This document shows, piece after piece, positions 28,462 to 48,581 of a stretch of 48,695 nucleotides of DNA; the first letter of the stretch is position 1, and each line of letters starts with the position of its first letter. Source of the DNA: Thermoanaerobacteraceae bacterium (GTDB lineage Bacteria; Bacillota; Thermoanaerobacteria; Thermoanaerobacterales; UBA4877); NCBI GenBank assembly GCA_030016635.1, contig JASEJQ010000012.1:1-48695 (forward strand), written 5' to 3'. The position numbers and the translations under genes are program-made. The notes below the pieces were generated by a model that was given only the letters and a program-made list of their open reading frames with translations, was not told the DNA's origin and did not search any database.

Positions 28462-28815
28462 TTGTATATTTCATTTAAATCTTTTCCCTGTGTGAAAAAA
28501 GTGGTTCCGTTTGGGTAGGGAAAAGGGAAAAGGATAGAAAAAGGAATAAGGTTAAAGGTAAAAGGGAAAAGATGGGGGATAAGTGGTGAAGCCTTGAGAA
28601 ATGAGGGTTTTACGCCACTTATCCCTTTTTCCTTTTGCCCTTGATCCTGTCCTTTTGGAAATACTTTTTTCGCACAAATATGAGAGGCATATGGGAAATT
28701 TTAGTAGAAATATAGCTTATTTACGGGAAAAACTTTATTACCTTCCAGGAAATGCCATGTAGAGTTTGCGCGGGTTTGAGGGATTGGAAATGGAAAGGGT
28801 TTTTTTCAAATCAAC
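28462..28815. repeat. Palindromic repeat A, copy A3 (diverged, full unit)
   Basis: It starts TTGTATATTTCATTTAAATC like A1 and A2, and then differs at many positions while keeping the palindrome: GGGATAAGTGG (28576-28586) with CCACTTATCCC (28615-28625), and outer arms GAAAAAAGT / ACTTTTTTCGCACA. Substitutions outside the stem are frequent, but the stem halves are kept, suggesting that the fold matters or that the units were copied as elements. Its tail (28730-28815) parallels 28371-28455. Confidence 0.8.
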
Positions 28816-29010
28816 AGCAGGATAACCCCTGTTTTGCTGCGGGGTTTGCGTTTTTATTAGGGAGAAGAGATAAGGTGTAAGGGTTAAGGAGAATAGATTT
28901 TGCATGATGATTACAGCCTTGAAAGTACTGATTTTAAAGGAAATGAGGATAGTATTGATTTGAAATATTGATGAGATATTGATACCTGGATTGATAGAAA
29001 GTATATAACT
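28816..29010. repeat. Repeat B, copy B1, with terminator-like head
   Basis: The head AACCCC / GGGGTT hairpin (about 28824-28843) is followed by a T-rich run. Then comes GATAAGGTGTAAGGGTTAAGG (about 28868-28888) and an AT-rich body with GATTACAGCC and GATTTTAAAGGAAATGAGGATA, shared with B2 and B3. No coding frame of note. Confidence 0.7.
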
Positions 29011-30713: not shown

Positions 30714-30929
30714 ATTGACTATAATATTAAAAGCGCAAAGTTATTGGAGATAAAAGAGTTAAAGGGATTTCAGAATGAACCAGGGGTGTTGGAGTATCAG
30801 GTTAAAGTTGATTTTGATTTTAAAAAACTAATAACAGCAGATGATGGAATTGGGACAAGATTTATTATATTGAAGAAAGAGTCTGAAAAAAGCGGCTGGA
30901 GGATGGAAGGTGTTAGTACGGGACTGTGA
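30714..30929 (+). pseudogene. Remnant of a small protein gene, start lost
   Basis: The open frame reads DYNIKSAKLLEIKELKGFQ and ends GWRMEGVSTGL. AGGAGG (30703-30708) stands at a normal distance from ATT 30714, but no ATG, GTG or TTG is in frame there; the first in-frame alternative start is TTG 30744 with no ribosome site. The content resembles the C-terminal part of small NTF2-like lipoproteins (beta strands ending ILKKESEKSGWRM). Either an ATT start is used or this is a truncated gene; truncation seems more likely. Confidence 0.45.
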
Positions 30930-31030
30930 TTAATATTTATAGAAACAGGATGTTTATGCCTGTTTTTTGTTTTTGTGCGTAGCACGATGATTTGATATAG
31001 CATTATTAATAGCAATTGGAAACAAAACTA

Positions 31031-31059
31031 TTGACTTTTCCTAAAAGTAGTAATATTAT
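31031..31059 (+). promoter_or_regulatory. Sigma-A type promoter of the defense operon
   Basis: -35 TTGACT (31031-31036), 17-base spacer, -10 TATTAT (31054-31059). It stands 32 bases before ATG 31091 and is the only good promoter that I see before the long operon. Confidence 0.78.
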
Positions 31060-31090
31060 ATTCGTAAAGAAAGTTGATTAAGGGGAAATT

Positions 31091-31144
31091 ATGTTACAGA
31101 ACGATGGTGAGTTAAGTGAATTGCATGTTTATTACCCCAGATAA
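31091..31144 (+). CDS. 17-residue leader ORF, or frameshifted start of the HsdS-like gene
   Basis: ATG 31091 follows AGGGGAAATT, the best ribosome site near the promoter. It encodes MLQNDGELSELHVYYPR and stops at 31142-31144. The HsdS-like frame opens inside it at GTG 31116. This may be a coupled leader peptide, or a one-base change may have broken the original N-terminus. Confidence 0.35.
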   Translation: MLQNDGELSELHVYYPR

Positions 31145-32399
31145 AATGGATGGAAAACGAATTTCTTATGATTATGTAGTACAGCAATATGAAATAAAGC
31201 GATTATTACAGGGACATCCCCTTATAATATTAATTGATATTTGCAAAGAAATAACAAGTGGGATTCGGGTTAAGAAAGAGTATTATACAGATAAAAACGG
31301 ATATAAGATTATTGCTCCTGGAGACATAAGAAATGAAGTTATATATATTAATGAACTTAAAGTAGTACAGCCTGAAGTAGTAAGAGAAAAAGACATTATA
31401 AATAATGGCGATATATTGATTACAGCCTCAGGTAAATCAGGACAGGTAATTTATGTAAATGAAGTATTAGAAGGATGTGTAGTAACATCGGATATTATTA
31501 AAATTACATTAAGGGATAGGGATAAAGGTATAAGATTATATAAGTTTTTAAAAAGCAGTATAGGACAAATGCTGTTAAACTCCATAAAAATAGGGATTTT
31601 AAATAAAATTTTTGTGGAGGATATTGAGAATTTATTAATTCCTGAAGACTTTGATACATATCAGGAAGATTGTTCTTATGATTCTACAGTATATGCAGAG
31701 GCTGAAAAACTATACAGGTCTGCAGAAAACATATTTTACAGGGTATTTGATTATAAAGGTGAAGAAAAGAATCTTAAACACTTTTATGTGACAGAATACC
31801 TTGACAGTCACAGATTAGACCCTGAGTACTACTCGAACTTTTACACCGAACTGTATAGGGTAATTCACAAGAATCTTGATGATGTAAAATGGCAGGAACT
31901 TGGAGAACTTGTAGAAATAAAAAAAGCAGATAAGCCCGAAATAAGTGAGAACCAAAAAGTAAAGTATTTTTTGTTAGCGGATATAGACCCGAACTTTTCA
32001 ATCATAAAAGAGACCCATGAGGATTTTTACGGCAATTTAAGCAATCGGATGAGATATATTGTGAAGAGGGGAGAAATAGTAACTGCCAAAGGAGGCAGTG
32101 CCACAGGGACTAAGGGACATGCAACAGCACTTATTACAGAAAAATTTGACGGTTTGGTTACAACAGATGCTCTATATAACTTGGTCCCCAGAAGAATTAA
32201 TCCTTACTATCTTCTGTTTTTATTTAAACAACCAATAATTCTAAACCAGGTAAACATGTTTACTAAAGGGACACTATATAAACTCATTCAAAGAAATGAC
32301 TTTGAAAAAATCAAAATTCCAAGACTGGAAAGTAGTTTGGAAGAACAAATAGTAGATAAAATGATGAATTATTTAAGTGTGTTACAAAACAAATTTTAA
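31116..32399 (+). CDS. HsdS-like DNA specificity protein (first of two)
   Basis: The 427-residue protein resembles type I restriction specificity subunits: two target-recognition-like halves, each ending in a segment like IKIGILNKIFVEDIENLLIP (about 150-172) and LYKLIQRNDFEKIKIPRLES (about 387-406), with a linking helix near 190-215. Such proteins direct a methyltransferase to a bipartite site. It opens the operon but is separated from the methyltransferase gene by two small genes. The start may be GTG 31116 or ATG 31125; neither has a good site of its own, see the leader ORF. Confidence 0.82.
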   Translation: MNCMFITPDKMDGKRISYDYVVQQYEIKRLLQGHPLIILIDICKEITSGIRVKKEYYTDKNGYKIIAPGDIRNEVIYINELKVVQPEVVREKDIINNGDILITASGKSGQVIYVNEVLEGCVVTSDIIKITLRDRDKGIRLYKFLKSSIGQMLLNSIKIGILNKIFVEDIENLLIPEDFDTYQEDCSYDSTVYAEAEKLYRSAENIFYRVFDYKGEEKNLKHFYVTEYLDSHRLDPEYYSNFYTELYRVIHKNLDDVKWQELGELVEIKKADKPEISENQKVKYFLLADIDPNFSIIKETHEDFYGNLSNRMRYIVKRGEIVTAKGGSATGTKGHATALITEKFDGLVTTDALYNLVPRRINPYYLLFLFKQPIILNQVNMFTKGTLYKLIQRNDFEKIKIPRLESSLEEQIVDKMMNYLSVLQNKF

Positions 32400-32413
32400 A
32401 AGAGGTGTTATAT

Positions 32414-32644
32414 ATGGGTAAAAATCAATGGGTTGTAAGACATGGCGATAAATGGGCTGTTAAAGGTGAAGGCAACGAAAGAGCAACTAAAGTTACTGAT
32501 ACTCAAAAACAAGCAATAAATGTAGCAAAAGGAATTGCCCAAAACCAGAAATCGGAATTGATTATCCAAGGAAGAGATGGCAAAATCAGGAGTAAAGATA
32601 GTTATGGAAATGACCCGTGTCCACCAAAAGATAAGGAACATTAA
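32414..32644 (+). CDS. DUF2188-family small protein
   Basis: The 76-residue protein starts GKNQWVVRHGDKWAVKGEG, continues RATKVTDTQKQAI and ends with GRDGKIRSKDSYGNDPCPPK; this is the full DUF2188 pattern. The family has no settled function, but members are often found beside restriction-modification and other mobile genes. ATG 32414 follows AGAGGTG by 6 bases. It is 14 bases behind the HsdS-like gene and 15 before the next gene. Confidence 0.88.
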   Translation: MGKNQWVVRHGDKWAVKGEGNERATKVTDTQKQAINVAKGIAQNQKSELIIQGRDGKIRSKDSYGNDPCPPKDKEH

Positions 32645-32659
32645 TGGAGGTGGACGCTG

Positions 32660-33022
32660 TTGGTAGAAATAATATATGAACAACTGAAAACCCCTAAGTC
32701 TGTTGAAGAATTACACCAAAGGTTAAAAGAGTCTGGAGTGAAATGGAATAAAGCACAATTACAACTGTTTCTTCTTATGGATAGTAATATTAAAAAGACA
32801 GGGGATTTATACAGTGTTGGAGGAAATAATCTAAATACTATTATATTGGACATAGTGGATAAAGTAATGGATGGTAAACCTGTTGCACCTATAAAAAGGA
32901 TTATGGAGTATGTACCAAATGATATTACTGTTAGTGCAGAAGAGATATCAAAAATTGCAGAGCAAAGTGGGAAATACAAACTTCATCCCAATGGGGCTGT
33001 TTTAATGAGAGCAAAAAATTAA
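32660..33022 (+). CDS. Small tandem winged-helix-like protein
   Basis: The 120-residue protein appears to have two helix-turn-helix-like units: EQLKTPKSVEELHQRLKESG ... LYSV (about 6-52) and an IVDKVMDG ... TVSAEEISKIAEQSG unit (about 60-105). It might bind DNA as an operon regulator or act as an adaptor of the methyltransferase. I do not know a named family. The start is TTG, about 8 bases behind GGAGGTGG. Confidence 0.62.
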   Translation: MVEIIYEQLKTPKSVEELHQRLKESGVKWNKAQLQLFLLMDSNIKKTGDLYSVGGNNLNTIILDIVDKVMDGKPVAPIKRIMEYVPNDITVSAEEISKIAEQSGKYKLHPNGAVLMRAKN

Positions 33023-33035
33023 GGAGGAATTTTTC

Positions 33036-34922
33036 ATGCAGGAACTAAAGGATAAAATCAAAAAACTTGGTTATGAGGAAATAAAGGATATTGATGATGC
33101 TACCTTTGTAGCCAGTCATAAAGATGTATATGTATATGTAAAAAAAGTAGATGAAGAACAGTTGAAACCAGAACTGGTTACTGCCATAACATTTGAAGCG
33201 ATGGCAACAGACCCTATTTCTACATATGCTTGGATTACAAACGGTAGAAGTAATGCCTATGTCCTTGTTGAAGAGGAAAAGGCTGTTTCTGAAATTCCGT
33301 CAGTCTTTGAAGATGAAAACAAATTGTACTCAGGCAAAAGGCAACTTACTGATAGGGACAAATGGTCAATAAGAAAATATCAGGAGTTACAAGAGAAGTT
33401 TGATGGACTCCATGAAATGATTTATGGAATGAAAGACCATGTAAATAACTCAAATGATGTAATAGATGAATTCAGCAAACTTATTTTTTTGGAGACCTTC
33501 AGGCTTTATCATCCTGAATATAGATTAACTAAGGGTAATGTAACAGGGAAACTGTTCAACGAAATATATAGATACGAATATGTAGAAAAACACAAGGATA
33601 AGGCAGTCCAGGAGATAAGGGAAGCCTTTAAAGAAGTAAAAGACCATGCAGATTATGTTGCTATTTTAGATAATGGGGAAAAGGCAAACATATTTAGTGC
33701 AGATGAGTATATAAAACTGGAGAACCCCAATATCTATATTGCTGTTTTAAAAGCTTTGCAAGATTTGGGTACTATAAGAATTGACGGTGTAGAGAGACCT
33801 GCCACTTTAAGAGATTTATCTGGGGATGTATTGGGCAGGGTCTTTGATGTGCTGCTTCGCGGAAAGTTTGAAAATAAAGGCGGTATGGGTATATATCTCA
33901 CCCCAAGACAAGTTACGGAAGCAGCAGCAGAAATGGTTTTACACGACCTTACCAAAAACGGGGCAGCAAAACTAATTGCTAAAGATCCCAAAACAGGAAT
34001 ACCTACCCTCCGCATAGGTGATTTATGCTGCGGTTCGGCAGGCTTTTTAATAAAAATGCTACAGAAGATAGAACACTACCTTCTAAACAAATTGACAGGA
34101 GACAAGAAGCAGTATGAGGAACTTTTTGAACAAATGAAGGAACACTGTTTTATAGGTGCTGATAATGCCCCAGGGATGGTGCTTAAAGCAAGGATTAACA
34201 TGGCACTTCACGGAGCACCTAAGTGTCCTATTTTCCAAACGAGAAATTCTCTTATGAATACACGTCTTAAACCAGGGACATTCGATGCAATCCTTACGAA
34301 TCCCCCGTTTTCAAAAACTGGAATTTCAAAAACAATTAGGAAGGGGAATACCATTGTTGAGAACCCTGAAGGTGCTGAAATTATCAAATATTATTCTTCT
34401 GACATAGATGAAGATGGACAAAACAGAATGAGTCCTTATGGTTTATCTCTTGGGTCAAAGCCAGACAGCAGAGGTCAGTGGAAAGAAGTAAATTCTGTAG
34501 ACCCTGCAGTATTGTTTATCGATAGAAACCTTCAATTATTGAAACCAGGCGGGCTACTCATGATAGTCGTACCAGACGGAATTCTTTCAAACTCTGGTGA
34601 TAAATATGTCCGTGAATACATCATGGGCAAAAAGAACCCTGTAACTGGTGAATTTGAAGGCGGTAAAGCAATACTGAAAGCGGTTATAAGCCTTCCGCAG
34701 GAAACTTTTGCATTGTCAGGAGCGGGGGCAAAGACTTCTCTACTTTACCTAAAGAAGAAGGAACATCCAGGAGAAAAACAAGGTCCTGTATTTATGGCAG
34801 TAGCAGATGAAGTGGGATTTACGGTAAAACAGAATGTAGAAGTGCAGTTGGGCGACGACCACAACGATTTATTAAAGATTGTGGAGGCTTATAAAAAGGG
34901 TATGCCAGAGGATATGGAATAG
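33036..34922 (+). CDS. HsdM-like N6-adenine DNA methyltransferase
   Basis: The 628-residue protein combines an N-terminal nuclease-like or HsdR_N-like region (about 1-100), a helical part, and a type I adenine methyltransferase domain. The SAM motif is DLCCGSAGFLIKML (about 328) and the catalytic motif IV is NPPF (about 421), giving N6-adenine methylation. YLTPRQVTEAAAEM just before motif I is the usual HsdM lead-in. In this locus methylation most likely marks self DNA. GGAGGAA precedes ATG. It is followed at once by the second HsdS-like gene. There is no HsdR gene in the window. Confidence 0.93.
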   Translation: MQELKDKIKKLGYEEIKDIDDATFVASHKDVYVYVKKVDEEQLKPELVTAITFEAMATDPISTYAWITNGRSNAYVLVEEEKAVSEIPSVFEDENKLYSGKRQLTDRDKWSIRKYQELQEKFDGLHEMIYGMKDHVNNSNDVIDEFSKLIFLETFRLYHPEYRLTKGNVTGKLFNEIYRYEYVEKHKDKAVQEIREAFKEVKDHADYVAILDNGEKANIFSADEYIKLENPNIYIAVLKALQDLGTIRIDGVERPATLRDLSGDVLGRVFDVLLRGKFENKGGMGIYLTPRQVTEAAAEMVLHDLTKNGAAKLIAKDPKTGIPTLRIGDLCCGSAGFLIKMLQKIEHYLLNKLTGDKKQYEELFEQMKEHCFIGADNAPGMVLKARINMALHGAPKCPIFQTRNSLMNTRLKPGTFDAILTNPPFSKTGISKTIRKGNTIVENPEGAEIIKYYSSDIDEDGQNRMSPYGLSLGSKPDSRGQWKEVNSVDPAVLFIDRNLQLLKPGGLLMIVVPDGILSNSGDKYVREYIMGKKNPVTGEFEGGKAILKAVISLPQETFALSGAGAKTSLLYLKKKEHPGEKQGPVFMAVADEVGFTVKQNVEVQLGDDHNDLLKIVEAYKKGMPEDME

Positions 34923-34923
34923 G

Positions 34924-36336
34924 ATGGTGAAAAACTTGGAAGAACTTTTTATACAGAGCAAAAATCCAAGTATCGTTTGGATAACGGCTAAATTTATTGA
35001 AGATAAAATAGGAGGACAATATTATTCAACGGATTATATTGAGTATGAAAGAATATTAAAAACTAATAAATTAATAGTTTTAAAAGATGTTATATCCGAG
35101 TATAGCGGTGGCCCGATGGGGTTTCAATTGCACTCATATGATTATGTTGACCAAGGAGTACCAGTACTAAGAACAAAAGATATGAAAGAACTAACAATAA
35201 TATTGGATGACCCGATATTTATATCGCAAGAAAAACATAATGAGTTAAAAGGTAGCAAGACATATCCAGGGGATATTATAATTTCCAAAACTGGCCAAAT
35301 TGGCGTAGTAGCAGTGGTTCCAAAAACATTAAACGAGGCAAATCTGAATCAAGCATTATGTAATATTAGAGTAAAAGAAGGTATTATTGATAATTATTTT
35401 TTAGCAGTTTTTTTAAATAGTAAGTATGGTCAATATCAATTCATTAGACAGGGTGAAGGAAAAGCAGTTCAAAATGGTTTAACTAAAGATGAAATATTAG
35501 ACTTACAAATACCAGTTATTTCTCCTGAAATTCAAAAATACATAGGAGATAAGGTTAGAAAAGCAGAAGAGTTGAGAGAAGAAGCGAAAAGGTTGAAGAA
35601 AGAGGCTGAAGAGATATTAAATAAAGAACTTAATTTAAAAGATGTTGAATTTTATATAAAACAAACAAATAATAAGAAGTATTCTTGGACAGAAAGTATA
35701 GAAATTGAAGATAGAATCGATAGTGAATTCTATAAGCCCAAGTATAGATATTTAAGCAAATTAAATAATATGTCTGAGTTAAGTTATTATTATAAGATAA
35801 GCAAGAAACGAATAAACAAAAATATAGATAGAAAAATAAAATACATTGATTTATCAAGTGTCAATAATATTATTGAGCCTAGTGACTTTAATACTAAAGA
35901 ATTACCAAGTAGAGCCCAATTTTTAGTTAAGGAAGGTAATCTAATTATTTCTACCTTAAAAGGTTCAAATAAAATTTCAATTATACCTGAACACCTTAAT
36001 GATTCAGTTTGTTCTACAGGGTTTATTGTTATTGCTACCAAGTCTCATTTAACAACTGAGTATTTATACTTGGTATTTTCTAATAAGGTGTTTAATATGC
36101 AGATAGAGAGATATTCTACAGGTTCTATAATGAGTGGTGTTAATCATGATGATTTTAATAAAATGCTTATACCTGTTATATCTAATAAACAAATTATTGA
36201 TACAATTACTAATAAATTAAGAAAACATTTTAGACTTTTGTATTATTCCAAACAACTAATCCAAGAAGCCAAACAGGACGTAGAAGACCTTATAGAAGGC
36301 AACTTTGATATGTCAAAAGTTAAGGCAAATAATTAA
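34924..36336 (+). CDS. HsdS-like DNA specificity protein (second)
   Basis: The 470-residue protein has two target-recognition domains, the first ending QNGLTKDEILDLQIPVISPE (about 195-215), then a coiled-coil spacer (about 218-250, KAEELREEAKRLKKEAEEI), then a second domain closing with GVNHDDFNKMLIPVIS and a final helix. This is the classical HsdS plan, so it probably gives the methyltransferase its target. ATG 34924 is one base behind the methyltransferase stop; upstream in-frame starts lie inside that gene. The second half is very AT-rich, suggesting separate acquisition or recombination of recognition domains. Confidence 0.9.
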   Translation: MVKNLEELFIQSKNPSIVWITAKFIEDKIGGQYYSTDYIEYERILKTNKLIVLKDVISEYSGGPMGFQLHSYDYVDQGVPVLRTKDMKELTIILDDPIFISQEKHNELKGSKTYPGDIIISKTGQIGVVAVVPKTLNEANLNQALCNIRVKEGIIDNYFLAVFLNSKYGQYQFIRQGEGKAVQNGLTKDEILDLQIPVISPEIQKYIGDKVRKAEELREEAKRLKKEAEEILNKELNLKDVEFYIKQTNNKKYSWTESIEIEDRIDSEFYKPKYRYLSKLNNMSELSYYYKISKKRINKNIDRKIKYIDLSSVNNIIEPSDFNTKELPSRAQFLVKEGNLIISTLKGSNKISIIPEHLNDSVCSTGFIVIATKSHLTTEYLYLVFSNKVFNMQIERYSTGSIMSGVNHDDFNKMLIPVISNKQIIDTITNKLRKHFRLLYYSKQLIQEAKQDVEDLIEGNFDMSKVKANN

Positions 36337-36365
36337 AGTTTTTGAAACAAAGGCAGGTGAGACCT

Positions 36366-37421
36366 TTGGTAAACATAAACGAGTTGGTGAAAAGTTTAAA
36401 CAGCCTATATGACTATGGAGAAATAAAAAATGACACTGATTTACAATACCTTATAGACCAAAACTTTATTAGACTTGCAGAAGATAGGCTGGTTATCACG
36501 AAAAAATGGGTTAAGTTCAGCGGAAAGGTAAGCAGGGAAGATTTTATATCTTCACTTCTCTGTTTCTATCCGCCTCTGTTACATAAGTTGCTAAAAAAAG
36601 TATACGAAGAGGCTTGTATTATAGGTCAAAGGGGAGACGGTAAAGCCCTATATGAATTTATAGACAGCATCCCTGAATTTGCTGAAACCATATTAAACAT
36701 TAAGGATAAAGATGTAGAAGAAACGGAAGAAATAAAATACTTTTATCAGGCTGTGTTTAATGGGTATCCTCAATATCCTTCAATACTTACAAAACTAAAA
36801 ACCATGCAGTTAGCAGAAGATACAGAGGATGTAGAGTTATCGCCGATGGGTAATAATCCTAATGAGATATGGGTGCAGGGAAGAAGAATAACTTCATCTG
36901 TAAATCTACCAAAGTTAAAGGATAAAAATAAATACACCTTTACCCCCTATGAATACAGGGATTTTCCAGTGGAAGAAGAAGTAGGGGAGGTTCTTTCTTA
37001 CCCATGGAAAACTTTTTTAACAATACTATCAATGGTAGCCCTTGAATACCAGGCAGCAGGTTTTGAAGGATTATCCATAAGGCCTACGGACCACACCAAC
37101 TACTATACAACCCAGCCTTTAGACTTTTACATCTTCAATATAAATGGAAGGGAGATAAGGGTAGGAAGGCTCAATGATTTTGTATATGAGTTTTGCGTGG
37201 GAAATGATATGTACCTTTTCCCAGATAAGGCTCCTGAAGTAGACAAGGTGGTTTTTAATATGATGGATGAGCAGAAAATCGATTTTAAAGATGGGGAATA
37301 TGTCCTCAATGAAAGGTTTAAAGACCTGATATACTCAAAGGATGTTATTATAAAAAACCGCTCCAGAAAGTTTAAAAGCACCCTTAAAGACTATGTAGAA
37401 AAGTTGAGGAATACATTATGA
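36366..37421 (+). CDS. Unrecognised protein of the defense operon (about 351 residues)
   Basis: The sequence looks alpha/beta with no membrane segment. The N-terminal 60 residues resemble a winged helix (YLIDQNFIRLAEDRLVITKKW). The C-terminal half contains WKTFLTILSMVALEYQAAGF and TDHTNYYTTQPLDFYIF, which I cannot assign. TTG 36366 follows AGGCAGGTGAG by 4 bases; TTG 36342 is also in frame but has no site. Its end overlaps the next gene by 4 bases (ATGA), and the two may form one complex. Confidence 0.72.
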   Translation: MVNINELVKSLNSLYDYGEIKNDTDLQYLIDQNFIRLAEDRLVITKKWVKFSGKVSREDFISSLLCFYPPLLHKLLKKVYEEACIIGQRGDGKALYEFIDSIPEFAETILNIKDKDVEETEEIKYFYQAVFNGYPQYPSILTKLKTMQLAEDTEDVELSPMGNNPNEIWVQGRRITSSVNLPKLKDKNKYTFTPYEYRDFPVEEEVGEVLSYPWKTFLTILSMVALEYQAAGFEGLSIRPTDHTNYYTTQPLDFYIFNINGREIRVGRLNDFVYEFCVGNDMYLFPDKAPEVDKVVFNMMDEQKIDFKDGEYVLNERFKDLIYSKDVIIKNRSRKFKSTLKDYVEKLRNTL

Positions 37422-38473
37422 TTATAAAAATAGGTACGGACAGATTTTGGGTAAAGGTATCCAATATAGAAAGATGGGCAGAGATTTTAAAATCCCTACC
37501 CAAGAAAATACCCTGCAGCAGTAAAAAAGATTTAGCCAGAGATTATCTAGGCTATAAGGTTGACGAGAGCGGAAGAATTGTTAATGCTGATGAGGTATAT
37601 GGTCTGTTTGGTGCAGAAAAAGATAAAAACTCTTTAACTATCGTTGGATGTAACTTTATAAAGGAAATTGAAGGCGGATATGAACTTACAGAGGGTGCCA
37701 CTGAACTGGTAGAAAGATTTAAACATAATGAAGAATGGGAAAAGGTATTGGCCAAGCAATTATTAAAGTATTCCATAAGAATTAGGACCATTGCTTATGC
37801 GATGCTAAATGGAGGATATCTCTATTTTGAAAAAGGATATATGGAAAACTTCGCAAAGGCTTATATAACCCTAAATGACAAGAAGTTTTACATTTTCAGC
37901 AGTAAGCCTGATGAAATGAACATTAATAGTTTAATGAAGGAGAATCAATCAAAAATATTAGGGGATTTCTGGAAAATGGAACTTGATATTGGAAATGGGG
38001 AAGAAATAGAATTTAGGGGCGTTAATAAAGATTATCCTTCTTTAGGTTCTATGAGTACTTATTTAAAAATACCAATGCTGTTATTTGACTATTTAGGGTG
38101 GATTGTTGAAAGCGAAGATGGAAGGTACATCTTAGATAAACATAAGATAAAAGAGGATACAGGTATTGATGTATATGAAAGTTTAGTAAATGAAGCCGAT
38201 ATGGATGATATAGAAATATTACATAAATTAATTGAGGAATACTCAGATGCAAGGGGATTTTTCCCAATAGGAATAGTAGGCTCCATATTGAAAAAGAAGG
38301 TTGACAGTAAGAATACCATCGCAGAAGAACAATGGATTGACCATTACTTTGTTACAGGTATAAACAAAGGAAAGTTTATAATTAAAGACCATGAGCAGGG
38401 ACAACCCAGGCACGGCAGGGGCTTGCTGGGGGAAAAAGATTATCAATTAATTAAGTTGGAGATTAGAGATTAG
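37418..38473 (+). CDS. Unrecognised protein of the defense operon (351 residues)
   Basis: It starts MIIKIGTDRFWVKVSNIERW and has a helical middle (about 85-130) and a probable winged helix near the C-terminus (about 245-285, HKLIEEYSDARGFFPIGIVG), ending in a basic, Gly-containing stretch. No catalytic motif is evident. It has almost the same length as its predecessor and is coupled to it by ATGA; both being wHTH-containing suggests DNA- or protein-binding subunits. Confidence 0.72.
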   Translation: MIIKIGTDRFWVKVSNIERWAEILKSLPKKIPCSSKKDLARDYLGYKVDESGRIVNADEVYGLFGAEKDKNSLTIVGCNFIKEIEGGYELTEGATELVERFKHNEEWEKVLAKQLLKYSIRIRTIAYAMLNGGYLYFEKGYMENFAKAYITLNDKKFYIFSSKPDEMNINSLMKENQSKILGDFWKMELDIGNGEEIEFRGVNKDYPSLGSMSTYLKIPMLLFDYLGWIVESEDGRYILDKHKIKEDTGIDVYESLVNEADMDDIEILHKLIEEYSDARGFFPIGIVGSILKKKVDSKNTIAEEQWIDHYFVTGINKGKFIIKDHEQGQPRHGRGLLGEKDYQLIKLEIRD

Positions 38474-38486
38474 GAGGGATGTGGGC

Positions 38487-41400: not shown

Positions 41401-42548
41401 AGATTTGCTACCAAGTATATGACAGTGATGGATGGAATAACATCAAAACCTATAATCCAAACATCATAAAGGATATTAAAATTGATGATAAGGATAAGCC
41501 TTTGTGGTTTAGGGTAAGGCATATAAGATTGTTTATAGACTATATTAATACCTTAAAGGACCCAGCAGTAAAGAGCATTACGGATAAAATTGCAGAAATC
41601 AAGAAAAATTGTGAGTATTGCGGATTCATGCTTCCTATTTCTCCGATAACGAATATATTGCAAAAGTATTGTAATGAACTGCAGAACTCAACTGATTATG
41701 AAAAGATGACAATATCAGGTACAGGGACTATGGTTTCCTATATAAATACTTTAGCATATAAGTTAAAAGATGGAGATTTTAGTGGAGCATATAAGCGAAT
41801 TGAAGATATTCTTGATGCCTGCGGATTAGAGCCTATTGAGAACAATGAGTTAAAGTGGGCTAATGATAGAGGAATAATAGGTGAGTATAAGGCTATTTAT
41901 AAGAATTTTACTTCTATCATTGATTGTTATAAGAAATTACCTGAAAGCAAAAGGTGGGTTGATTATTTTTCAGATGCACCAGAAAAATTAAGGAATCATA
42001 CCGAGGTGAAGAATTTAAGCAACTGTATTAAGGAAATAGAGTTATTTGTTAACGGCGGTCTTGAACAGGAGATTGAAGATAACGAGCCTGTTATGCTGAG
42101 TAAGCCTGATGAATTTTTGGCGCTTCTTAAAAAGAGGGTAGAAGATATGCAGCAGTATGTAGGGCTTATTGAAGGTTATAAAACAAATGTAATGAATTTA
42201 GCAAGGACAAAGAAGAATGAGTTTTATGATAATTTGCTGATAAGTACCATAGATAAGATATGCAGAGTACAGGGGAAACCTCCAGTATCCGCACAAATAA
42301 ATACGGAAGAGTACCCAAAAGAGGAAACTTATGCTGCCACAAAAGAAGCGATACAGAATAAAATGAATTTGCTTGCAAGTGAAGGTGAATCATTCTTTAA
42401 AAATTCACCATTGATTAAGAAAACTACCTTTAGTTTCTTTAAGCAGGTAGTAGAAAAGGATGGAGATATTAACTGGGATGACTATGTTGAGGAAAAGCGT
42501 GAGTTAGAATCAGTAAAATTGATTCGGACAAAGGTTGAGGTACTGTGA
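38487..42548 (+). CDS. Very large P-loop ATPase of the defense operon
   Basis: The 1353-residue protein opens SIWAPFGTSDFPLNQPMVGQ. A Walker A-like SKWGVGKS lies at about residue 47 (S replaces the first G of GxxxxGKS), and a Walker B FLIVCDELE at about 195, so the N-terminal 450 residues form an AAA+ or STAND-like ATPase. The remaining 900 residues are helical and charged with no recognised domain. In size it recalls BREX BrxC and other large defense ATPases, but I see no true match. ATG 38487 is chosen over GTG 38481, as TAGGAGG (38471-38477) would touch the latter. Confidence 0.85.
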   Translation: MSIWAPFGTSDFPLNQPMVGQKEFYEIFKGFTKTMKSAGMATIFPLISKWGVGKSRIGFEIISEPLGMDKGWIINEDGVQKEVRIFKPNFEDKVLPLYIRYSQMCHPDLIGDNWVAYGIYTALSYLSRESDGSIQGKIMEAIQDALSPVGFDRSILGDLLQVDRVNLNELVISKEKLDELTRKGMEYVKQFGIEHFLIVCDELETAGEIAKYGIEKEKELVNKIDGEAIQVITSAIKHEDPRKKYPEVSYLLLCSTVIGGSIQGIGALDRRTEMYEMLQNSFADISDYIAYLNKKGMIPEYPKGLIEAAYTIAGGNFGWFNVIMNNVDQKMEDSSVKKETGYIFETILNSSNRFKESLIDKPAFDYIQCDDRFRQTIKHALLEQIPKKKTNYSAEEINAMMDAKAEDGEKLFKEFYCVKLEKDDLAVYLNSQGYKRETGDIFVNNFGSSFDLGILLRSLKTFSLNVKENEYIVGKEEETFLDQVRMLYPKDDIEESARYIYGYILEKIEKEDIKEAEYIGPNFAYLSRLDKRYRVEKDDFGYVPDTEKNKEIEALVKERSKNRREEVKRVLSGACRVLEINYPEESFYTINGVECVRTKVEGGPYLDVHEDRIVDIIWGKDEDKLKDALLDSRLLKEGVHPVIVISDSVISAEYTDKFVKEKYEGIGKCLIFVNITRLQKDILEVMSIDKDILDIRENRNVITSTFRDRIRKIRDHFNLKAREWFEKLDEEGWILRPIIYKKHDERQIALLSKAYKRMLIHNLDFEELGSKKDVRLSDAEYTELKNVLKSTAIGRMNEGKGYKETGLFFHEDENRYSINIPACMNRILKFNGNSNKSMADYGNKFFFSLIHEVKPKRTLEQWIEFMMGLNLLLKTKDGFIERISNYELDGRYSVVKKWLEDDCKKEIDSMKKVINGPYLDVLEKNQVPYYKVQLQEAEKIKDSINVDKLSEKDDKNMENFRDVISKIEEFLEICYQVYDSDGWNNIKTYNPNIIKDIKIDDKDKPLWFRVRHIRLFIDYINTLKDPAVKSITDKIAEIKKNCEYCGFMLPISPITNILQKYCNELQNSTDYEKMTISGTGTMVSYINTLAYKLKDGDFSGAYKRIEDILDACGLEPIENNELKWANDRGIIGEYKAIYKNFTSIIDCYKKLPESKRWVDYFSDAPEKLRNHTEVKNLSNCIKEIELFVNGGLEQEIEDNEPVMLSKPDEFLALLKKRVEDMQQYVGLIEGYKTNVMNLARTKKNEFYDNLLISTIDKICRVQGKPPVSAQINTEEYPKEETYAATKEAIQNKMNLLASEGESFFKNSPLIKKTTFSFFKQVVEKDGDINWDDYVEEKRELESVKLIRTKVEVL

Positions 42549-43348
42549 TGGTTATTCAAATATTATATGAATATAAGAATAGAACAGAATACAGGCTTCT
42601 TAAGGATTTTTATGACTGCCAGGTAGCCCAGATGAATTCACTGCAAACTGGGGTCTTAGTTCTGCCTGGGATTCTATTAAGTAAACTAAACAAACAACAG
42701 TTAGACTTACTTAACACATGGCTGGAGGATAATAAAAACCAGTTAATACTTACACCTTCCTGGACCGAAATGAATTTAAAGGAAATCCTTCACTCATCGG
42801 TAGATATAAGAATAAATAGAACAGATGATAATTATGAGGGAATTCCGATAGGCTTTTTGATTGATACCACTGTAAAAGATGTTGTATTTCAACAGAATGG
42901 AAAGAAATTTGGAATCCATTACAGGAAGAATACAGGAACAGGTCTGATAACGGTAGTCACACTACCGTTATTGGACTATAAAATGATTCAGTTAGAAGAT
43001 AAATTAAAGGCTCTTTTTAATTCCCTGCTTGTTGCTGAAGATGTTAAACAAGAATCCTTGGTAGAAACAAAAGATTTTATATTAGATGATATTCATGTTT
43101 ATTTGATTATCCTGACAGGGGCTGATATTGACTTAAGTCAGTGTCTGTCAAGTATAATTCATAAATATTTTGGAGTTTTCATTGATGAAGAAACTGCTAA
43201 GCAAAGATATCAAGACCTGATAGCAAATCAATATATTAACGAGAATGGATTGTTAAGCAAGGGTATGACTGTAGTTAAAGAAAGGAAATTGAAATCCTTT
43301 ATCAATGCTGTAAAACAAAGGGGAGAAAAAGAAGATGGATGGATTTAA
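42548..43348 (+). CDS. Unrecognised protein between the large ATPase and the NurA-like gene
   Basis: The 266-residue protein begins VIQILYEYKNRTEYRLLKDF. The first half looks Rossmann-like, with VLVLPGILLSKL and LITVVTLPLLDY strands; the C-terminal part (from about 175) is helical and basic at the end. No catalytic motif is seen. ATG 42548 overlaps the ATPase stop by one base; GTG 42545 is possible. Its place directly before the NurA-HerA pair suggests a subunit of that complex or a link to the large ATPase. Confidence 0.7.
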   Translation: MVIQILYEYKNRTEYRLLKDFYDCQVAQMNSLQTGVLVLPGILLSKLNKQQLDLLNTWLEDNKNQLILTPSWTEMNLKEILHSSVDIRINRTDDNYEGIPIGFLIDTTVKDVVFQQNGKKFGIHYRKNTGTGLITVVTLPLLDYKMIQLEDKLKALFNSLLVAEDVKQESLVETKDFILDDIHVYLIILTGADIDLSQCLSSIIHKYFGVFIDEETAKQRYQDLIANQYINENGLLSKGMTVVKERKLKSFINAVKQRGEKEDGWI

Positions 43349-44495
43349 AGAAAATAGTACTCCAATATCCCAAAGTATAGTGGCTAATATTCAATTAGGT
43401 CTTCCAGCCACAGTTTCCAGGTTATCATCCAAAATGCGGTTTATTGATAAAATAGCCCCTGCCCTAAAGGAAAGTGGGGTGGTTAGAAATATAGAATTAA
43501 TAGCCCCTCTCACTATCAAGGCATCAGGTATTGCGGCAACCAACAGAACTTCCAGTGCATTTGGCGGGATGTTATATGTTGCTGGTGCAGTAAGGCAGGA
43601 CATACTTATAAGTGAAGGTTCTATTTATAAAACAAGACAAGAAAGTATCGTTGATGTAGATGAGATAGATGACCTGGATAATCAGAAAAAGTTGAAGTTT
43701 ATAGATATTATCAATGTCTATAAACTCCTGTCTGACTTAATGGAAGATGATGAAAAACCCGAACTCGTTTTGATGGATGTACCTTTAGTACTTGAGCGTT
43801 CGGATGCTCCCCTTGAAGATAGAAAGGATATTATAAGAATTTATGATAAATGCAGAGAAACCATTAAGTTTTTCTGGGATAAATATAAGGACATGATATA
43901 CCCATTTAATGAAAATGGAATTAAAATCGCATCAGTAGGAACAAAAAGGTTTGGTGCAATTATATATGCACTCACTGAGGATAATTTAGTCTATATTCCA
44001 GATGATATGGACAATAGCATAGTTAAAAAGATAGAAGAACTAATGCCCAAAATTCAAGATGTAGGTATTAAAAGGCTGCTAACAGGTATTCTTGTAAAAA
44101 GAACAAGGACAGCAGCATTTCAATATGACGGACTAAATAAGGATAACAGGCTGGAGCCTGAAACTTTACGAGATGTGGGATTAATGGGCATGCATATTAA
44201 GGCGGGAAACACTACACCGCCACTTTTGGTAGAAGTATTAGGCAGCGTAAAAGATTGGTCATCTGAAATGCTAGATAAACTGGCTTCTCAAATTATATCC
44301 CTGATTGCATTTGACCAAAAAAAAGCACTGCCACTGCCATTATGGTATGCCAAATATGCTTTAAAACCAGTCGAGGCCACAAATAATGGGAAAAATGTGA
44401 TTTTAGAATACTATAAAACACAAGCCAGGGAGATGCTCCAAAATGAGGCATTGGAGAGCATTTGGAAAGAAGATTTGGATGTGTTTGAGGATTGA
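43335..44495 (+). CDS. NurA-like nuclease
   Basis: The 386-residue protein is placed immediately before herA and has the plan of NurA nucleases, which with HerA process DNA ends. A segment GIAATNRTSSAFGGMLYVAG (about 64-83) sits where NurA normally has an A-x-D-G-S motif, and ELVLMDVPLVLERSD (about 140) fits the second acidic motif. The C-terminal part has LLVEVLGS and a final helix region as in NurA. The first catalytic Asp appears to be replaced by Asn, if the alignment is right. It overlaps its predecessor by 14 bases. Confidence 0.68.
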   Translation: MDGFKENSTPISQSIVANIQLGLPATVSRLSSKMRFIDKIAPALKESGVVRNIELIAPLTIKASGIAATNRTSSAFGGMLYVAGAVRQDILISEGSIYKTRQESIVDVDEIDDLDNQKKLKFIDIINVYKLLSDLMEDDEKPELVLMDVPLVLERSDAPLEDRKDIIRIYDKCRETIKFFWDKYKDMIYPFNENGIKIASVGTKRFGAIIYALTEDNLVYIPDDMDNSIVKKIEELMPKIQDVGIKRLLTGILVKRTRTAAFQYDGLNKDNRLEPETLRDVGLMGMHIKAGNTTPPLLVEVLGSVKDWSSEMLDKLASQIISLIAFDQKKALPLPLWYAKYALKPVEATNNGKNVILEYYKTQAREMLQNEALESIWKEDLDVFED

Positions 44496-44513
44496 GGAGG
44501 AGGGGTGATTGTA

Positions 44514-46199
44514 GTGGATAAATATATAGGCAAACTTATCGGCAATACAGGCAATCCTAATGATTTAAAGATTGCTCTCGAAAACAGTTTTTCTGCTAAA
44601 AGAGGAGAGTTTGTAAAAATCAAGCATAGAGAATCGGAAGAAGATGGGGATACATATGTTCTCGGGAGAATTGTATCCATATCCAGAAGCAATATTCTAT
44701 ATAACTCCAATATGGGGGAGGGGCTGTCATCCCTTGAGATATTGCCAGGTGCCCAAGTTACTGGGGAGACTTTATTTGGGACCATAGAACTGGTGGGGTA
44801 CAGGGATAACTATGGACAGATAAAAATACCCAGGCGACCTCTCAACCCAGGGGAAAAGGTATATGGTGTTGATTATGAGTTTTTGTCAAAGTTTTATAAG
44901 TTTGATGAGAATACAAGCATTAACATAGGTAATTTGATTGGATATGACAAGGGAAGTAATATAGTCCCTGTTTATCTCGATGTAAACAAACTAGTTACAG
45001 AACATTTGGCTGTGCTGGCAATGACAGGTTCAGGGAAATCATATACTGTGGGCAGAATTATTGAAAGACTTGTAGCAGAGATGAATGGCACAGTAGTTGT
45101 ATTTGATGTCCATGGAGAATATGGAAAAGCATTTGAAAAGGGAGAGATACATTTTAATAACAATCTTGATTTTATTGAGGATGAGAGGGAAAAGAAGAGT
45201 ATTCAAAGAATTCAGGAACAATTCTTAAAATTAATAAAGGCTGGTGGAGGAATTAAAGTATATACTCCGCAAATGGATTCATTTGATTATAAATACAGCG
45301 CGAAAAATCATCACCTGGCACTTCAATTCGATAGATTTGACATGGATGATTTATCTTCTATTCTTCCAGGTTTGACAGAGGCCCAGGAAAGAGTATTGGA
45401 TGTTGCAATCAGGTATTGGAAAGCAAAATATAATAATCCGCCTCGGGATATTCAGGATTTAACATATCTCCTTTCTGACGAACAGGGACTTGAGGAACTA
45501 AAGAATTGGGACAATTTGACGGAAGGTGAAGCAAAAGCGCTGAATAATAGAAGCGCAGCAGTGGCTTCCATGAAATTAACCCGAGTAATAAATGAAGCAA
45601 AGAGTTTTTATACAAGGGCTATTGGTGAACCGACAGATATTTATAAGATGGTCGGAGAAAAGGGAAATAATGTGGGAAGGCTTGTAATTATAGACTTGCA
45701 AGGCTTATCTGATGATGCTAAACAAATTATAACAGCATTGATATCCAGTGAGATTATGAGGGCAGCATCGGATAAGAAAAGACAAATAAGGCCATGTTTC
45801 CTTGTTTATGAAGAGGGGCATAATTTTGCACCAGCAGGCATTCCAAGCATATCTAAAAAAATAATTAAGAAGATTGCTGCAGAAGGAAGAAAGTTTGGCA
45901 CTGGCTTTGCGATTATTTCTCAAAGGCCGTCAAAACTGGACCCTGATGTCACATCGCAATGTAATACAATCATTACAATGAGATTAAAGAATCCAGACGA
46001 CCAGAGGTTTATTGCAAAAACGTCAGATATGTTTTCAACATCTGATATTGAAGAACTGCCATCCTTATCTACGGGTGAAGCGTTGATAAACGGGAGGTCA
46101 ATACCAGCGCCGCTGCTTGTGAAAATAGGAACAAAAGCGTTGATACATGGTGGAGAGTCCCCCGAAGTTATCAAGGAATGGGGCGCATTCAATGAATAA
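44514..46199 (+). CDS. herA: HerA-type ATPase/DNA translocase
   Basis: The 561-residue protein has an N-terminal HAS-barrel-like domain (about 1-120), then a RecA-like motor domain of the FtsK/HerA group: Walker A MTGSGKSYTVGRIIE (about 169), VFDVHGEY, Walker B CFLVYEEGHNF (about 428), and SQRPSKLDP sensor motif. HerA forms a hexamer that pumps DNA into NurA. GTG 44514 is preferred over GTG 44505, which overlaps GGAGGAGGGG (44496-44505). It is followed by the nuclease-like protein with an 8-base overlap. Confidence 0.93.
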   Translation: MDKYIGKLIGNTGNPNDLKIALENSFSAKRGEFVKIKHRESEEDGDTYVLGRIVSISRSNILYNSNMGEGLSSLEILPGAQVTGETLFGTIELVGYRDNYGQIKIPRRPLNPGEKVYGVDYEFLSKFYKFDENTSINIGNLIGYDKGSNIVPVYLDVNKLVTEHLAVLAMTGSGKSYTVGRIIERLVAEMNGTVVVFDVHGEYGKAFEKGEIHFNNNLDFIEDEREKKSIQRIQEQFLKLIKAGGGIKVYTPQMDSFDYKYSAKNHHLALQFDRFDMDDLSSILPGLTEAQERVLDVAIRYWKAKYNNPPRDIQDLTYLLSDEQGLEELKNWDNLTEGEAKALNNRSAAVASMKLTRVINEAKSFYTRAIGEPTDIYKMVGEKGNNVGRLVIIDLQGLSDDAKQIITALISSEIMRAASDKKRQIRPCFLVYEEGHNFAPAGIPSISKKIIKKIAAEGRKFGTGFAIISQRPSKLDPDVTSQCNTIITMRLKNPDDQRFIAKTSDMFSTSDIEELPSLSTGEALINGRSIPAPLLVKIGTKALIHGGESPEVIKEWGAFNE

Positions 46200-46833
46200 G
46201 GAAACAATCATTGATTTCATAAAAAAAGAATTTAAAGAAGGAAAAATTAGAAACGAAATGTTTCCTATGATGACAAAATTCGGGGTAAGAGACTATTCAG
46301 AAACTGTTCATACTGTAGGTCTTAATTATATAACCGCAATAGGAAGATTTGTTGATGGGGTTACATCCCTTTCTGAATGTCCTGTGTTTCCATATTCTGA
46401 AAGAAGCCATTATGGACAAATGGTTGCAGAGAGCCAGGCCAGTTACGAAATAAAAGTTAACGAAGTAAGACCAGATTCTATTTGGTATTCGAAAGAGGAT
46501 AATAGTCCTATATTGATTTGTGAATTTGAAAGATATGAAAAGAATAGACGAAAAGATTTAAAAATCAAGGAAAAGATACAAAATCTGCTTCTTGCTTATC
46601 ACCAATTGGGCGGAAATGTACCTATTATATTGTTTGTATATTGGAGTTATGCTGGGGAGAATCCAGGGGATATTGGAGAATATATATCAATACTGGATAA
46701 TGGCTTTAAGAAAAATGATGGTACCTATGTACAAGGAATAAATGCTTTGAAAACGACCTATCTGGTTTATCGCTGTGTTGCTTCAGGCAGTATTGATAAT
46801 TTAACACTAAATCAATGGGTAGAGGTAGGTTAA
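46192..46833 (+). CDS. Putative PD-(D/E)XK-like nuclease or accessory protein
   Basis: The 213-residue protein has RPDSIWYSKEDNSPILICEFER at about 92-113, a hairpin with P-D before it and E-x-E after it, similar to PD-(D/E)XK nucleases, though Lys is replaced by Glu. The rest includes KIQNLLLAYHQLGGNVPIIL, with a strand-turn typical of restriction-fold cores. Assignment is tentative. ATG 46192 lies inside the end of herA; GTG 46147 is possible but overlaps by 53 bases. The kinase gene follows after 3 bases. Confidence 0.6.
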   Translation: MNKETIIDFIKKEFKEGKIRNEMFPMMTKFGVRDYSETVHTVGLNYITAIGRFVDGVTSLSECPVFPYSERSHYGQMVAESQASYEIKVNEVRPDSIWYSKEDNSPILICEFERYEKNRRKDLKIKEKIQNLLLAYHQLGGNVPIILFVYWSYAGENPGDIGEYISILDNGFKKNDGTYVQGINALKTTYLVYRCVASGSIDNLTLNQWVEVG

Positions 46834-46836
46834 ATT

Positions 46837-48297
46837 ATGAAGAAAAAAGCAGTTAATTTTCATCCGCAAGTAGATTTGAGTATAGGGGATAAGTATTTGC
46901 TGAAAGAATTTATTGATGAGGGTTCCTTTGGTTATGTATGGAAAGCAGTAAACCTTGAAAGCAGACAAACAGTGGCACTTAAAATACCAAAGGACCAGGA
47001 ACGGGGAGACAACACCTTATCGGAAGGAAAAGAATTCATCGGAAGTCATCACCCAAATGTTATTTCCATATATTGGATGGGGCGAGTAGATGGAGTTTTT
47101 CTAATTGAAATGGAGTATTTTAACGGGCATAAACTATCTGACGAGTTATGTGAAACGGGATTTAAGAGTCCCAGAACATTTGAAGAAATATACAACTTGT
47201 TTTTTCAAATATTGGATGGTGTAGAATATATACATTCAAAGCATATTTGCCATGGAGATATTAAACCTCAAAATATATTAATAGATGGGAAAATAGCCAA
47301 AATAACCGATTTCGGTACAAGTAAACTGATAGAAGATTTATTTATAAAAACAATTGATGGTGGAGGCACCTGGGCTTATATGGCTCCAGAAGTGGCTGGG
47401 TCTAACCGCAGGTATCTTAACTCGGATATATATGCATTGGGAGTACTTTTATACAAGTTTTTAACTGGCAGGACTCCTCATGAAACTGCCAATCAATTAA
47501 TAAATAATATGCCTTATCCAAAACCAAGAGAGATAAATGATAATATACCAGAATCGGTTGAAGGAATTATCATGAAATTACTTAAAAGAAACCCTGAAGA
47601 AAGGTATCAGAATGTAAGGGAAATAAAAAGGGATTTCGAAGAGGTATTAAGGAATGGAAATAACAATATTATTTCTTACAATGAGCGGGTTGAAGTAAGA
47701 TATGAGGATACTGATTGGATAGAAAGAGTAATCCGATACTATAAGAATAAAGAATTTGATAAGGCAGAATTACTGCTAAAAACGGAGTATGAGAATGGAA
47801 ATAAATCTGCTGACATATTATATCACATTGCTTATACATATTTTCAACAGGGAAGATATTTTGACAGCATGGATGTGCTAAACAGTATAGATATTAAAGA
47901 GGTAGAGGATGTCAGAAGAGAGGCTTTAGAAGATAATCTTCTATACTTAAAAGGAAAATTATTTTTTGAACTAAAAAGATATGAGGAAGCAGTCAAAGTC
48001 TATGAAAAACTTGTATCAGGGAATCCAGACGACTTGAACTATAGATATAAACTGGCATGTGCTTATGGCTTAAATAATGAACAGGAAAAATCCATAGAGA
48101 TTCTGGAGGATATTAATAAAAAGACTCCTGGAATGCTCTATATAGTAAAAAAACTTGGTCACGCATACGACCAGAGAAAAGACTTTAAAAAGGCAAGGGC
48201 TTATTTTAATTATGCCATACGTTTAGACCCGAATGATACGCTGATTAGGAGTAGGCTGGAGGAATATAGTAAGTATTTAAGTTATCTTGGGTATTAG
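46837..48297 (+). CDS. Serine/threonine protein kinase with TPR-like repeats
   Basis: The 486-residue protein has a complete Hanks-type kinase domain (about 20-275): glycine loop EGSFGYVWKA, VALKIPK (Lys about 50), catalytic loop HGDIKPQN (about 138), DFG (about 157), WAYMAPE (about 183). HGD replaces the usual HRD, so this is a non-RD kinase. From about 300 come helical repeats of the TPR kind (KNKEFDKAELLL, YFQQGRYFDSMDVL, LKRYEEAVKVYEKL, FKKARAYFNYAIRLDPND). No membrane segment or PASTA domain is present, so it is cytosolic. It closes the operon and may phosphorylate operon partners or phage proteins. Confidence 0.93.
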   Translation: MKKKAVNFHPQVDLSIGDKYLLKEFIDEGSFGYVWKAVNLESRQTVALKIPKDQERGDNTLSEGKEFIGSHHPNVISIYWMGRVDGVFLIEMEYFNGHKLSDELCETGFKSPRTFEEIYNLFFQILDGVEYIHSKHICHGDIKPQNILIDGKIAKITDFGTSKLIEDLFIKTIDGGGTWAYMAPEVAGSNRRYLNSDIYALGVLLYKFLTGRTPHETANQLINNMPYPKPREINDNIPESVEGIIMKLLKRNPEERYQNVREIKRDFEEVLRNGNNNIISYNERVEVRYEDTDWIERVIRYYKNKEFDKAELLLKTEYENGNKSADILYHIAYTYFQQGRYFDSMDVLNSIDIKEVEDVRREALEDNLLYLKGKLFFELKRYEEAVKVYEKLVSGNPDDLNYRYKLACAYGLNNEQEKSIEILEDINKKTPGMLYIVKKLGHAYDQRKDFKKARAYFNYAIRLDPNDTLIRSRLEEYSKYLSYLGY

Positions 48298-48308
48298 GGT
48301 GAGTTATT

Positions 48309-48404
48309 TTGGATTTGGTAGAAATTAAATTTTATAAATATAAGAAAATCTTTAAAGGTATGAGCAGGTTAGTAAAATTTATAAAAATAGTATCGGGAGG
48401 ATGA
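48309..48404 (+). CDS. Possible 31-residue small ORF
   Basis: TTG 48309 behind GGGTGAG (48298-48304) encodes a Lys-rich peptide starting LDLVEIKFYKYKK and ending in the ribosome site of the next broken frame. It could be a remnant. No family is recognised. Confidence 0.28.
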   Translation: MDLVEIKFYKYKKIFKGMSRLVKFIKIVSGG

Positions 48405-48406
48405 GT

Positions 48407-48581
48407 ATGAATACCGTTTTTAAAAAGGAAATTGAGGATATAAGTGTTTCAGATTTCATTCTACCAGAGTCCAGAGGATGCAGTGTTTAAGGCACTTGGG
48501 GTAGAGTAGTTTGAGTTTGTACCATGTTATATTAATGGAAAGTTTACAAAGAATTATCTGCCTGTATTGTGTAAGGAGTGA
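48407..48581 (+). pseudogene. Frameshifted and interrupted small gene
   Basis: ATG 48407 behind GGGAGG starts MNTVFKKEIEDISVSDF. Reading then continues sensibly only in another frame: YQSPEDAVFKALGVE, an in-frame TAG, then FEFVPCYINGKFTKNYLPVLC and TGA at 48579-48581. One frameshift near 48455 and one nonsense codon would explain this. The original family is not recognised. Confidence 0.5.

Follow-up and report, generated by a model that had tools for sequence, protein, structure and literature searches.

What is encoded by the block of thirteen genes (g1 to g13) towards the end of contig JASEJQ010000012.1 (assembly GCA_030016635.1) from a Thermoanaerobacteraceae bacterium? The window, i.e. 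the whole 48,695-nucleotide stretch analysed here, had been taken in a sequence-only reading to carry MADS or a relative of it, enlarged by five extra or unassigned proteins. Our comparisons instead support a coherent, horizontally moved and methylation-linked operon of the defence type that does without HsdR and is not MADS plus extra genes. Judged from sequence comparison, its function is very probably defence. With more reserve, we are inclined to see it as an unnamed, mobile, restriction-like system licensed by N6-methyladenine (m6A), in which HerA and a NurA-fold protein would pump DNA, g12 and/or g10 would cut it and a kinase would gate the response, a function that we infer.

Gene order is conserved across phyla. 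The marker gene of the system, g8, occurs in 7 of 398 Bacillota genomes, and the Bacillota relatives (6 of 6) share the order: those closely related carry the full set g1-g13, Halanaerobium has g3-g13, and in G386 the contig ends after g1-g8. Among 84,980 species genomes, at least 73 loci with g8 relatives (a lower bound from a scan built on two short peptide patterns) were found in Bacillota, Pseudomonadota, Cyanobacteria, Planctomycetes and Acidobacteria. Methyltransferase, S, g8, g10, HerA, g12 and kinase all stand in this order in 55 of the 56 loci with enough flanking sequence, and g1, g2, g7 and at times g6 depend on lineage. The five proteins regarded earlier as additions to MADS are instead conserved core parts of a separate cross-phylum system. 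Searches of 72,556 plasmids and 50,697 phage records with the window and Pantoea versions turned up no g8 relative. Some otherwise intact operons carry insertions of ~0.9 kb and 2 kb, between g2 and g3 in G302 (L012/L013) and between g10 and g11 in L030, and g7 is frameshifted in G325.

The operon also moves as a block of DNA. By blastn, the homology with Herbinix (Lachnospiraceae), Tepidanaerobacter and Clostridium sp. N3C opens at 30929-31014 and closes at 48287-48451, with DNA identities of 82-96% over all close relatives. For the 17.5-kb unit, an identity of 92-95% across Lachnospiraceae, Tepidanaerobacter and Clostridium argues for horizontal transfer, and the earlier suggestion that features of the locus fit transfer is backed by one DNA block shared among distant lineages. 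Identity breaks only inside g5, where a central conserved core of ~100 bp (35521-35640) stays at 92-99%; the g5 proteins share 33-42% identity, against mostly 90-98% for the remaining genes of the operons compared. Unlike g5, g1 is as conserved as the remaining operon. Because divergence is confined to g5 around this retained core, g5 shows, on sequence comparison, the pattern left when type I target-recognition domains are swapped and the centre is kept.

All 13 genes are real. The open reading frame (ORF) list of the window bears out thirteen co-directional genes, which fill 31116-48297 with successive spacings of 5, 15, 13, -44, 5, -4, 7, -4, -14, 9, -53 and 3 bases. Gaps of up to about 30 bases had been proposed; compactness stands, and the real spacing (-53 to +15) is tighter still. 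The annotated starts of g5 and g12 are probably too long, and with the likelier ATG 34924 and ATG 46192, as in homologues, two overlaps shrink. Between the window and its relatives in Herbinix, in Tepidanaerobacter and in two further genomes, the ratio of nonsynonymous to synonymous substitution rates (dN/dS) is 0.00-0.29 for every gene, small g2 and g3 included, except g5 (0.44-0.61), which indicates that all 13 are genes under purifying selection. The locus is, as had been said, richer in AT than the core genes, with a GC content of ~0.34 in the operon region versus 0.41-0.49 across the upstream core genes. The proposal of one promoter fared less evenly: a promoter-like match precedes g1, but matches of this type are at chance level (68 found versus 72.7 expected); the stretch 5' of g1 (30935/31014-31116), which is conserved along with the operon in relatives, supports a promoter there.

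As to components, family matches confirm the HsdM-like methyltransferase (g4, Pfam N6_Mtase) and both HsdS-like proteins (g1, g5) of the sequence-only reading, and library searches agree with it that no HsdR is present among the 13 proteins. The small g2 is kept in most close relatives and absent from distant ones. Profile comparison detects no relation between g6 and g7. The large P-loop ATPase was rightly recognised in g8, whose relatives conserve the Walker A (GxGKSR) and Walker B (DE) motifs; catalytic residues are likewise conserved in relatives of HerA, the kinase and the methyltransferase. Neither Pfam nor NCBIfam has a family, and PADLOC no convincing one, for g3, g6, g7, g8, g9, g10 and g12 (for g8, none in any of the three), and with PADLOC 2.0 and NCBIfam 2026 the same set (g3, g6-g10, g12) draws no family in the window, E. 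coli or Pantoea versions. Sequence searches of the PDB with g6, g8, g9, g10 and g12 gave nothing firm.

The NurA-like assignment of g10 holds by fold, although Pfam NurA is silent and hhalign of g10 against the chromosomal NurA is not significant; the fold search alone settled its identity. The g10 model matches Sulfolobus NurA best in Foldseek (2ygk, E 2.9e-12), then HerA-NurA complexes and, lower down, TdpAB (PDB 8wfd). Its neighbour g11, confirmed as a HerA ATPase with a HAS-barrel, is the most conserved component (~65% identity between Bacillota and Pseudomonadota) and finds its best PDB sequence match in HerA of the Thermococcus HerA-NurA complex. The Hanks-type kinase with TPR-like repeats (g13) was confirmed as well. 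The D ... E-x-E arrangement is a BamHI-like form of the PD-(D/E)XK motif. In g12, E77, D110, E126-x-E128 and K143 (numbered on the longer ORF from 46147) are invariant across 25 homologues, and the AlphaFold2 model (pLDDT, a predicted local distance difference test score, of 87.2) has restriction endonucleases as its top Foldseek matches, led by BstEII (E 6e-3) and followed by EcoO109I, MunI, BsoBI and PfoI.

Table. Coordinates of the operon, its genes and related features; positions refer to the window unless a locus is named.
Feature	Position	Strand	Basis or remark
Transfer unit, 17.5 kb	30935..48451	+	blastn boundaries of the DNA homology block
Promoter-like TTGACT-17-TATTAT before g1	31031..31059	+	10/12 consensus match
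g1 (S1), HsdS-like specificity protein	31116..32399	+	78-96% in close relatives, conserved with operon
g2, small DUF2188 protein	32405..32644	+	PADLOC candidate PDC-S16, 125 bits
g3, 120-aa protein, matches no known family	32660..33022	+	cross-phylum conservation immediately 5' of the methyltransferase
g4, HsdM-type N6-adenine DNA methyltransferase	33036..34922	+	Pfam N6_Mtase; motif NPPF conserved
g5 (S2), HsdS specificity subunit, swapped target-recognition domains	34924..36336	+	ORF opens at TTG 34879
g6, 359-aa protein, matches no known family	36342..37421	+	conserved in multiple phyla
g7, 351-aa protein, matches no known family	37418..38473	+	Bacillota and some other lineages
g8, 1355-aa P-loop ATPase	38481..42548	+	Walker A GVGKSR residues 53-58, Walker B DE 203-204
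g9, 267-aa protein	42545..43348	+	weak C-terminal MarR-type winged-helix resemblance (E 0.017)
g10, NurA-fold (RNase H-like) protein	43335..44495	+	AlphaFold2 (pLDDT 84.5) and Foldseek
g11, HerA hexameric DNA translocase with HAS-barrel	44505..46199	+	Walker motifs intact
g12, PD-(D/E)XK-like nuclease candidate	46192..46833	+	invariant residues and weak fold matches
g13, Hanks-type Ser/Thr kinase with TPR repeats, 486 aa	46837..48297	+	K49, E63, H139-x-D141-x-K143 and D158-F-G intact
Extended-variant loci	L094 32-5027 and 21536-23773; L086; L069
Alternative front genes before g3	L063 1836-2951, L044 2296-4470, L085 1685-2626, L076 1290-4552

How might such a set of proteins work? Going by the domains, g4 with the exchangeable g5, and perhaps g1 too, would methylate adenines at a bipartite host site. 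The S/M complex would then report unmethylated sites on incoming DNA to g8 along with g3, g6, g7 and g9. From fold and homology, a g11 hexamer docked on a g10 dimer may pump the DNA for g12 and/or g10 to cut, and g13 would control activation by phosphorylating components of the system or host proteins.

Several points weigh against this restriction-like scheme. NurA carries its essential Asp in strand beta-1. In T. kodakarensis NurA this residue is D49 (PMC12977600). Residues 61-79 of g10 (beta-1, in a register set without superposition) hold no conserved acidic residue among 26 homologues, in which D148 and H287 are invariant and the D89 position is Asp or Glu. With no acidic residue conserved in beta-1, nuclease activity of g10 is doubtful, so that the claim of a NurA-like nuclease stands for the fold and less for the activity, and cleavage of the archaeal HerA-NurA type may not occur. 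For g12 itself, restriction endonucleases lead the list of fold matches, but even the best of these is weak (E 6e-3). Roles for g3, g6, g7, g8 and g9 are proposed from position only, and the exchange of S1 for McrBC in E. coli (see below) shows that the sensing end can differ. In the literature, we found no phage, plasmid or methylation experiment on the system. Taken with the doubt about g10, the invariant D ... E-x-E residues and the restriction-endonuclease fold matches make g12 the likeliest candidate for the cutter. A further reading, plausible if somewhat short of an even chance, sees a separate cross-phylum immune type, with a variant in a common laboratory strain of E. coli, in which HsdM/HsdS methylation would license self DNA, the kinase would control HerA, a NurA-fold protein that has lost the catalytic Asp and is carried by HerA would act as clamp or strand separator, g12 would cut and the front sensor would be exchangeable (S1, McrBC or RtcR-CARF).

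The chief rival is abortive infection or signalling, in which loss of methylation or an invader would activate g13, host targets would be phosphorylated and growth would stop, with HerA, g10 and g8 serving mainly as sensor. The kinase has all catalytic residues plus a TPR tail, the essential NurA Asp has no counterpart in g10, and DUF4297-HerA is known to defend by abortive infection (PMC11291478). Yet the PD-(D/E)XK-like active site, invariant in g12, points to DNA cleavage, and a methyltransferase paired with S implies that self DNA is shielded from a cutting activity. We regard this rival as unlikely and retain the restriction-like scheme.

Could the operon serve DNA repair instead, as a HerA-NurA end-resection unit that happens to lie next to an orphan type I methyltransferase? 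Archaea and Deinococcus do use HerA and NurA to resect double-strand breaks (PMC9960219, PMC12977600), and g10 has the NurA fold. The operon shares with the complexes of Thermococcus, Sulfolobus and Deinococcus the HerA family and a NurA-fold partner, whose gene lies immediately upstream; unlike them, it couples this pair to methyltransferase, S, kinase and a nuclease candidate, and g10 has no counterpart of the NurA beta-1 Asp. The same genome contains a separate, Pfam-detectable NurA elsewhere (G000:C40), so g10 and g11 do not represent the housekeeping pair for repair. Moreover, methyltransferase and S are co-linear with HerA in all but one of the 56 loci across phyla, the spread is patchy, between distant orders and in defence islands, and HsdS domain exchange is a signature of restriction. 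To our minds, a repair operon outside defence is improbable. With respect to defence islands, genes found beside the operon in relatives encode, among others, a Tiamat homologue (TmtA, 860 bits), Gabija-type helicases, a DRT-related reverse transcriptase and a DruK-like nuclease.

We hold it very improbable that the locus is MADS, with or without further genes, and acts by the mechanism of that system: scores fall far below the cut-offs, mad3, mad4 and mad7 are absent, mad1 finds no PADLOC match, and Pseudomonas loci differ in fusions and order. MADS reportedly comprises MAD1-8, as described by Maestri et al. in 2024. In two Pseudomonas loci located with the PADLOC mad7 model (858-878 bits), the order is methyltransferase, a 445-aa protein, a 235-aa protein, S, a ~1400-aa protein with NERD, two kinases and ATPase, a 557-aa mad7 and a ~1850-aa DndH-like HerA fusion. 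Common to both systems is a defence-type operon that joins homologous versions of an m6A methyltransferase, an HsdS-type subunit, a Hanks kinase domain and a HerA/FtsK-type ATPase. The methyltransferase and S have MAD2 and MAD5 as their nearest named NCBIfam models, and for the kinase MAD6 ranks with the best. However, g4 scores 120.7 bits against MAD2 (NF047738, cut-off 720; E. coli version 111 bits), g1 and g5 score 109 and 143 bits against MAD5 (NF047740, cut-off 400) and g13, a kinase-TPR protein without the NERD/ATPase fusion found in MADS, scores 139.5 bits against MAD6 (NF047741, cut-off 460). Profile-profile comparison relates g4 to mad2 (probability 99.9%), g13 to mad6 (99.8%) and, weakly, g11 to mad8 (87%). 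Among the 13 proteins, mad3, mad4 and mad7 have neither a PADLOC match nor a profile-profile counterpart, and mad1 has no PADLOC match. Absence of mad7 extends to 10 of 10 genomes with the present system, in a scan in which the model gave no match anywhere, and the same model is strong in Pseudomonas; its Bacillota matches are weak (17-29 bits) and were not counted as MADS. The HerA proteins differ too (DndH-like and ~1850 aa in MADS, free-standing with HAS-barrel and paired with a NurA-fold protein here), the gene order is unlike, and the present system adds the 1355-aa ATPase, the g12 nuclease candidate and g3, g6, g7 and g9. On these grounds we rejected MADS membership; what survives of the earlier assignment is a remote kinship between the methylation modules. 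As MAD2 and MAD5 are the nearest named models despite scores far below their cut-offs, this fits methylation modules that are distant cousins and effectors that may have been assembled independently.

Other known systems differ from the locus as well. HsdM and an exchangeable two-domain HsdS with conserved core are shared with type I systems, but their HsdR motor-nuclease is missing; HerA, the NurA-fold protein, g12 and g8 stand in its stead, and there are two S genes or McrBC. A large P-loop ATPase and a methyltransferase also occur in BREX and BREX-related capture systems (PMC12839542), some types of which add a kinase (PglW) or HerA/FtsK, and published HerA/FtsK 'capture' and BREX-related systems share the theme (PMC10853773, PMC12839542). 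In contrast to BREX, library searches identified no PglZ, BrxA, BrxB or BrxL among the 13 proteins, and we rejected membership on this ground and since hhalign of g8 with DUF6079/BrxC and DUF499 was not significant. Like the present operon, DUF4297-HerA and SIR2-HerA use a HerA translocase with a nuclease partner in defence, and TdpAB pairs a HerA-like with a NurA-like subunit; those systems are compact, the self mark here would be m6A set by HsdM/HsdS, and anti-phage HerA equivalog models reach 112-140 bits against cut-offs of 800-850. RefSeq annotation (September 2026) names no system for the locus. Nor did we find a system with this gene set in the literature, where our coverage is incomplete and a description elsewhere possible.

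The repeat island reported earlier ahead of the locus lies at 27908-28816, upstream of the AT-rich region, and consists of purine-rich, GGATAAGG-like tandem units of 196 bp (100% identical) and 358 bp. A piece of it (28111-28446) recurs, 77% identical, 3' of the same operon in genome G010, on account of which the repeats may mark an insertion hotspot. Downstream, from 48298 to the contig end at 48695, short ORF fragments resemble a disrupted gene, and homology to relatives is gone by 48451.

The front of the operon varies among loci. In an extended variant from Acidobacteria and others, RtcR-type CARF activator, histidine kinase-like and response regulator-like proteins are encoded 5' of the operon, a superfamily 2 (SF2) helicase lies 3' of or within it and g6 is replaced by another protein (c14). 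In other loci, the genes before g3 encode the nucleoid-associated NA37, a helix-turn-helix protein, a WYL regulator or a helicase with a DprA/SLOG pair. From such comparisons, the front position looks like an exchangeable slot for a sensor or regulator.

In Enterobacterales this position is taken by McrB-McrC, and so it is in E. coli, where McrB-McrC occupies the S1 place, g2 and g7 are missing and the genes are mostly annotated 'hypothetical protein'. Of 5426 complete E. coli genomes, 252 carry a match, 95-99% identical, to HerA from the Pantoea version, and 207 genomes (~4%) contain 80% or more of the 15.4-kb operon. Its site in E. coli is leuX, where integrases, a P4-like element and a phosphorothioate-DNA endonuclease are neighbours. 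The copy of the laboratory strain E. coli W is intact (4775472-4790879, with McrBC beyond; WFL_RS23785-WFL_RS23840 from kinase to McrB), and some in other strains are partly deleted or carry insertion sequences (leuX loci examined: L104, L105, L134). The CoCoNuT study deferred methyltransferase-associated McrB branches to a later publication (PMC11090510), and the E. coli version may be among these.

Taken together, a system of 10-13 genes that crosses phyla and is present in ~4% of complete E. coli genomes is apparently unnamed in the defence and protein-family libraries searched, and the intact variant copy in E. coli W makes its function, methylation motif and mechanism directly testable. 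If our reading is right, a single machine would combine type I specificity with the HerA-NurA repair motor and with control by a kinase, and the system would test whether a NurA that lacks its key Asp can serve restriction.

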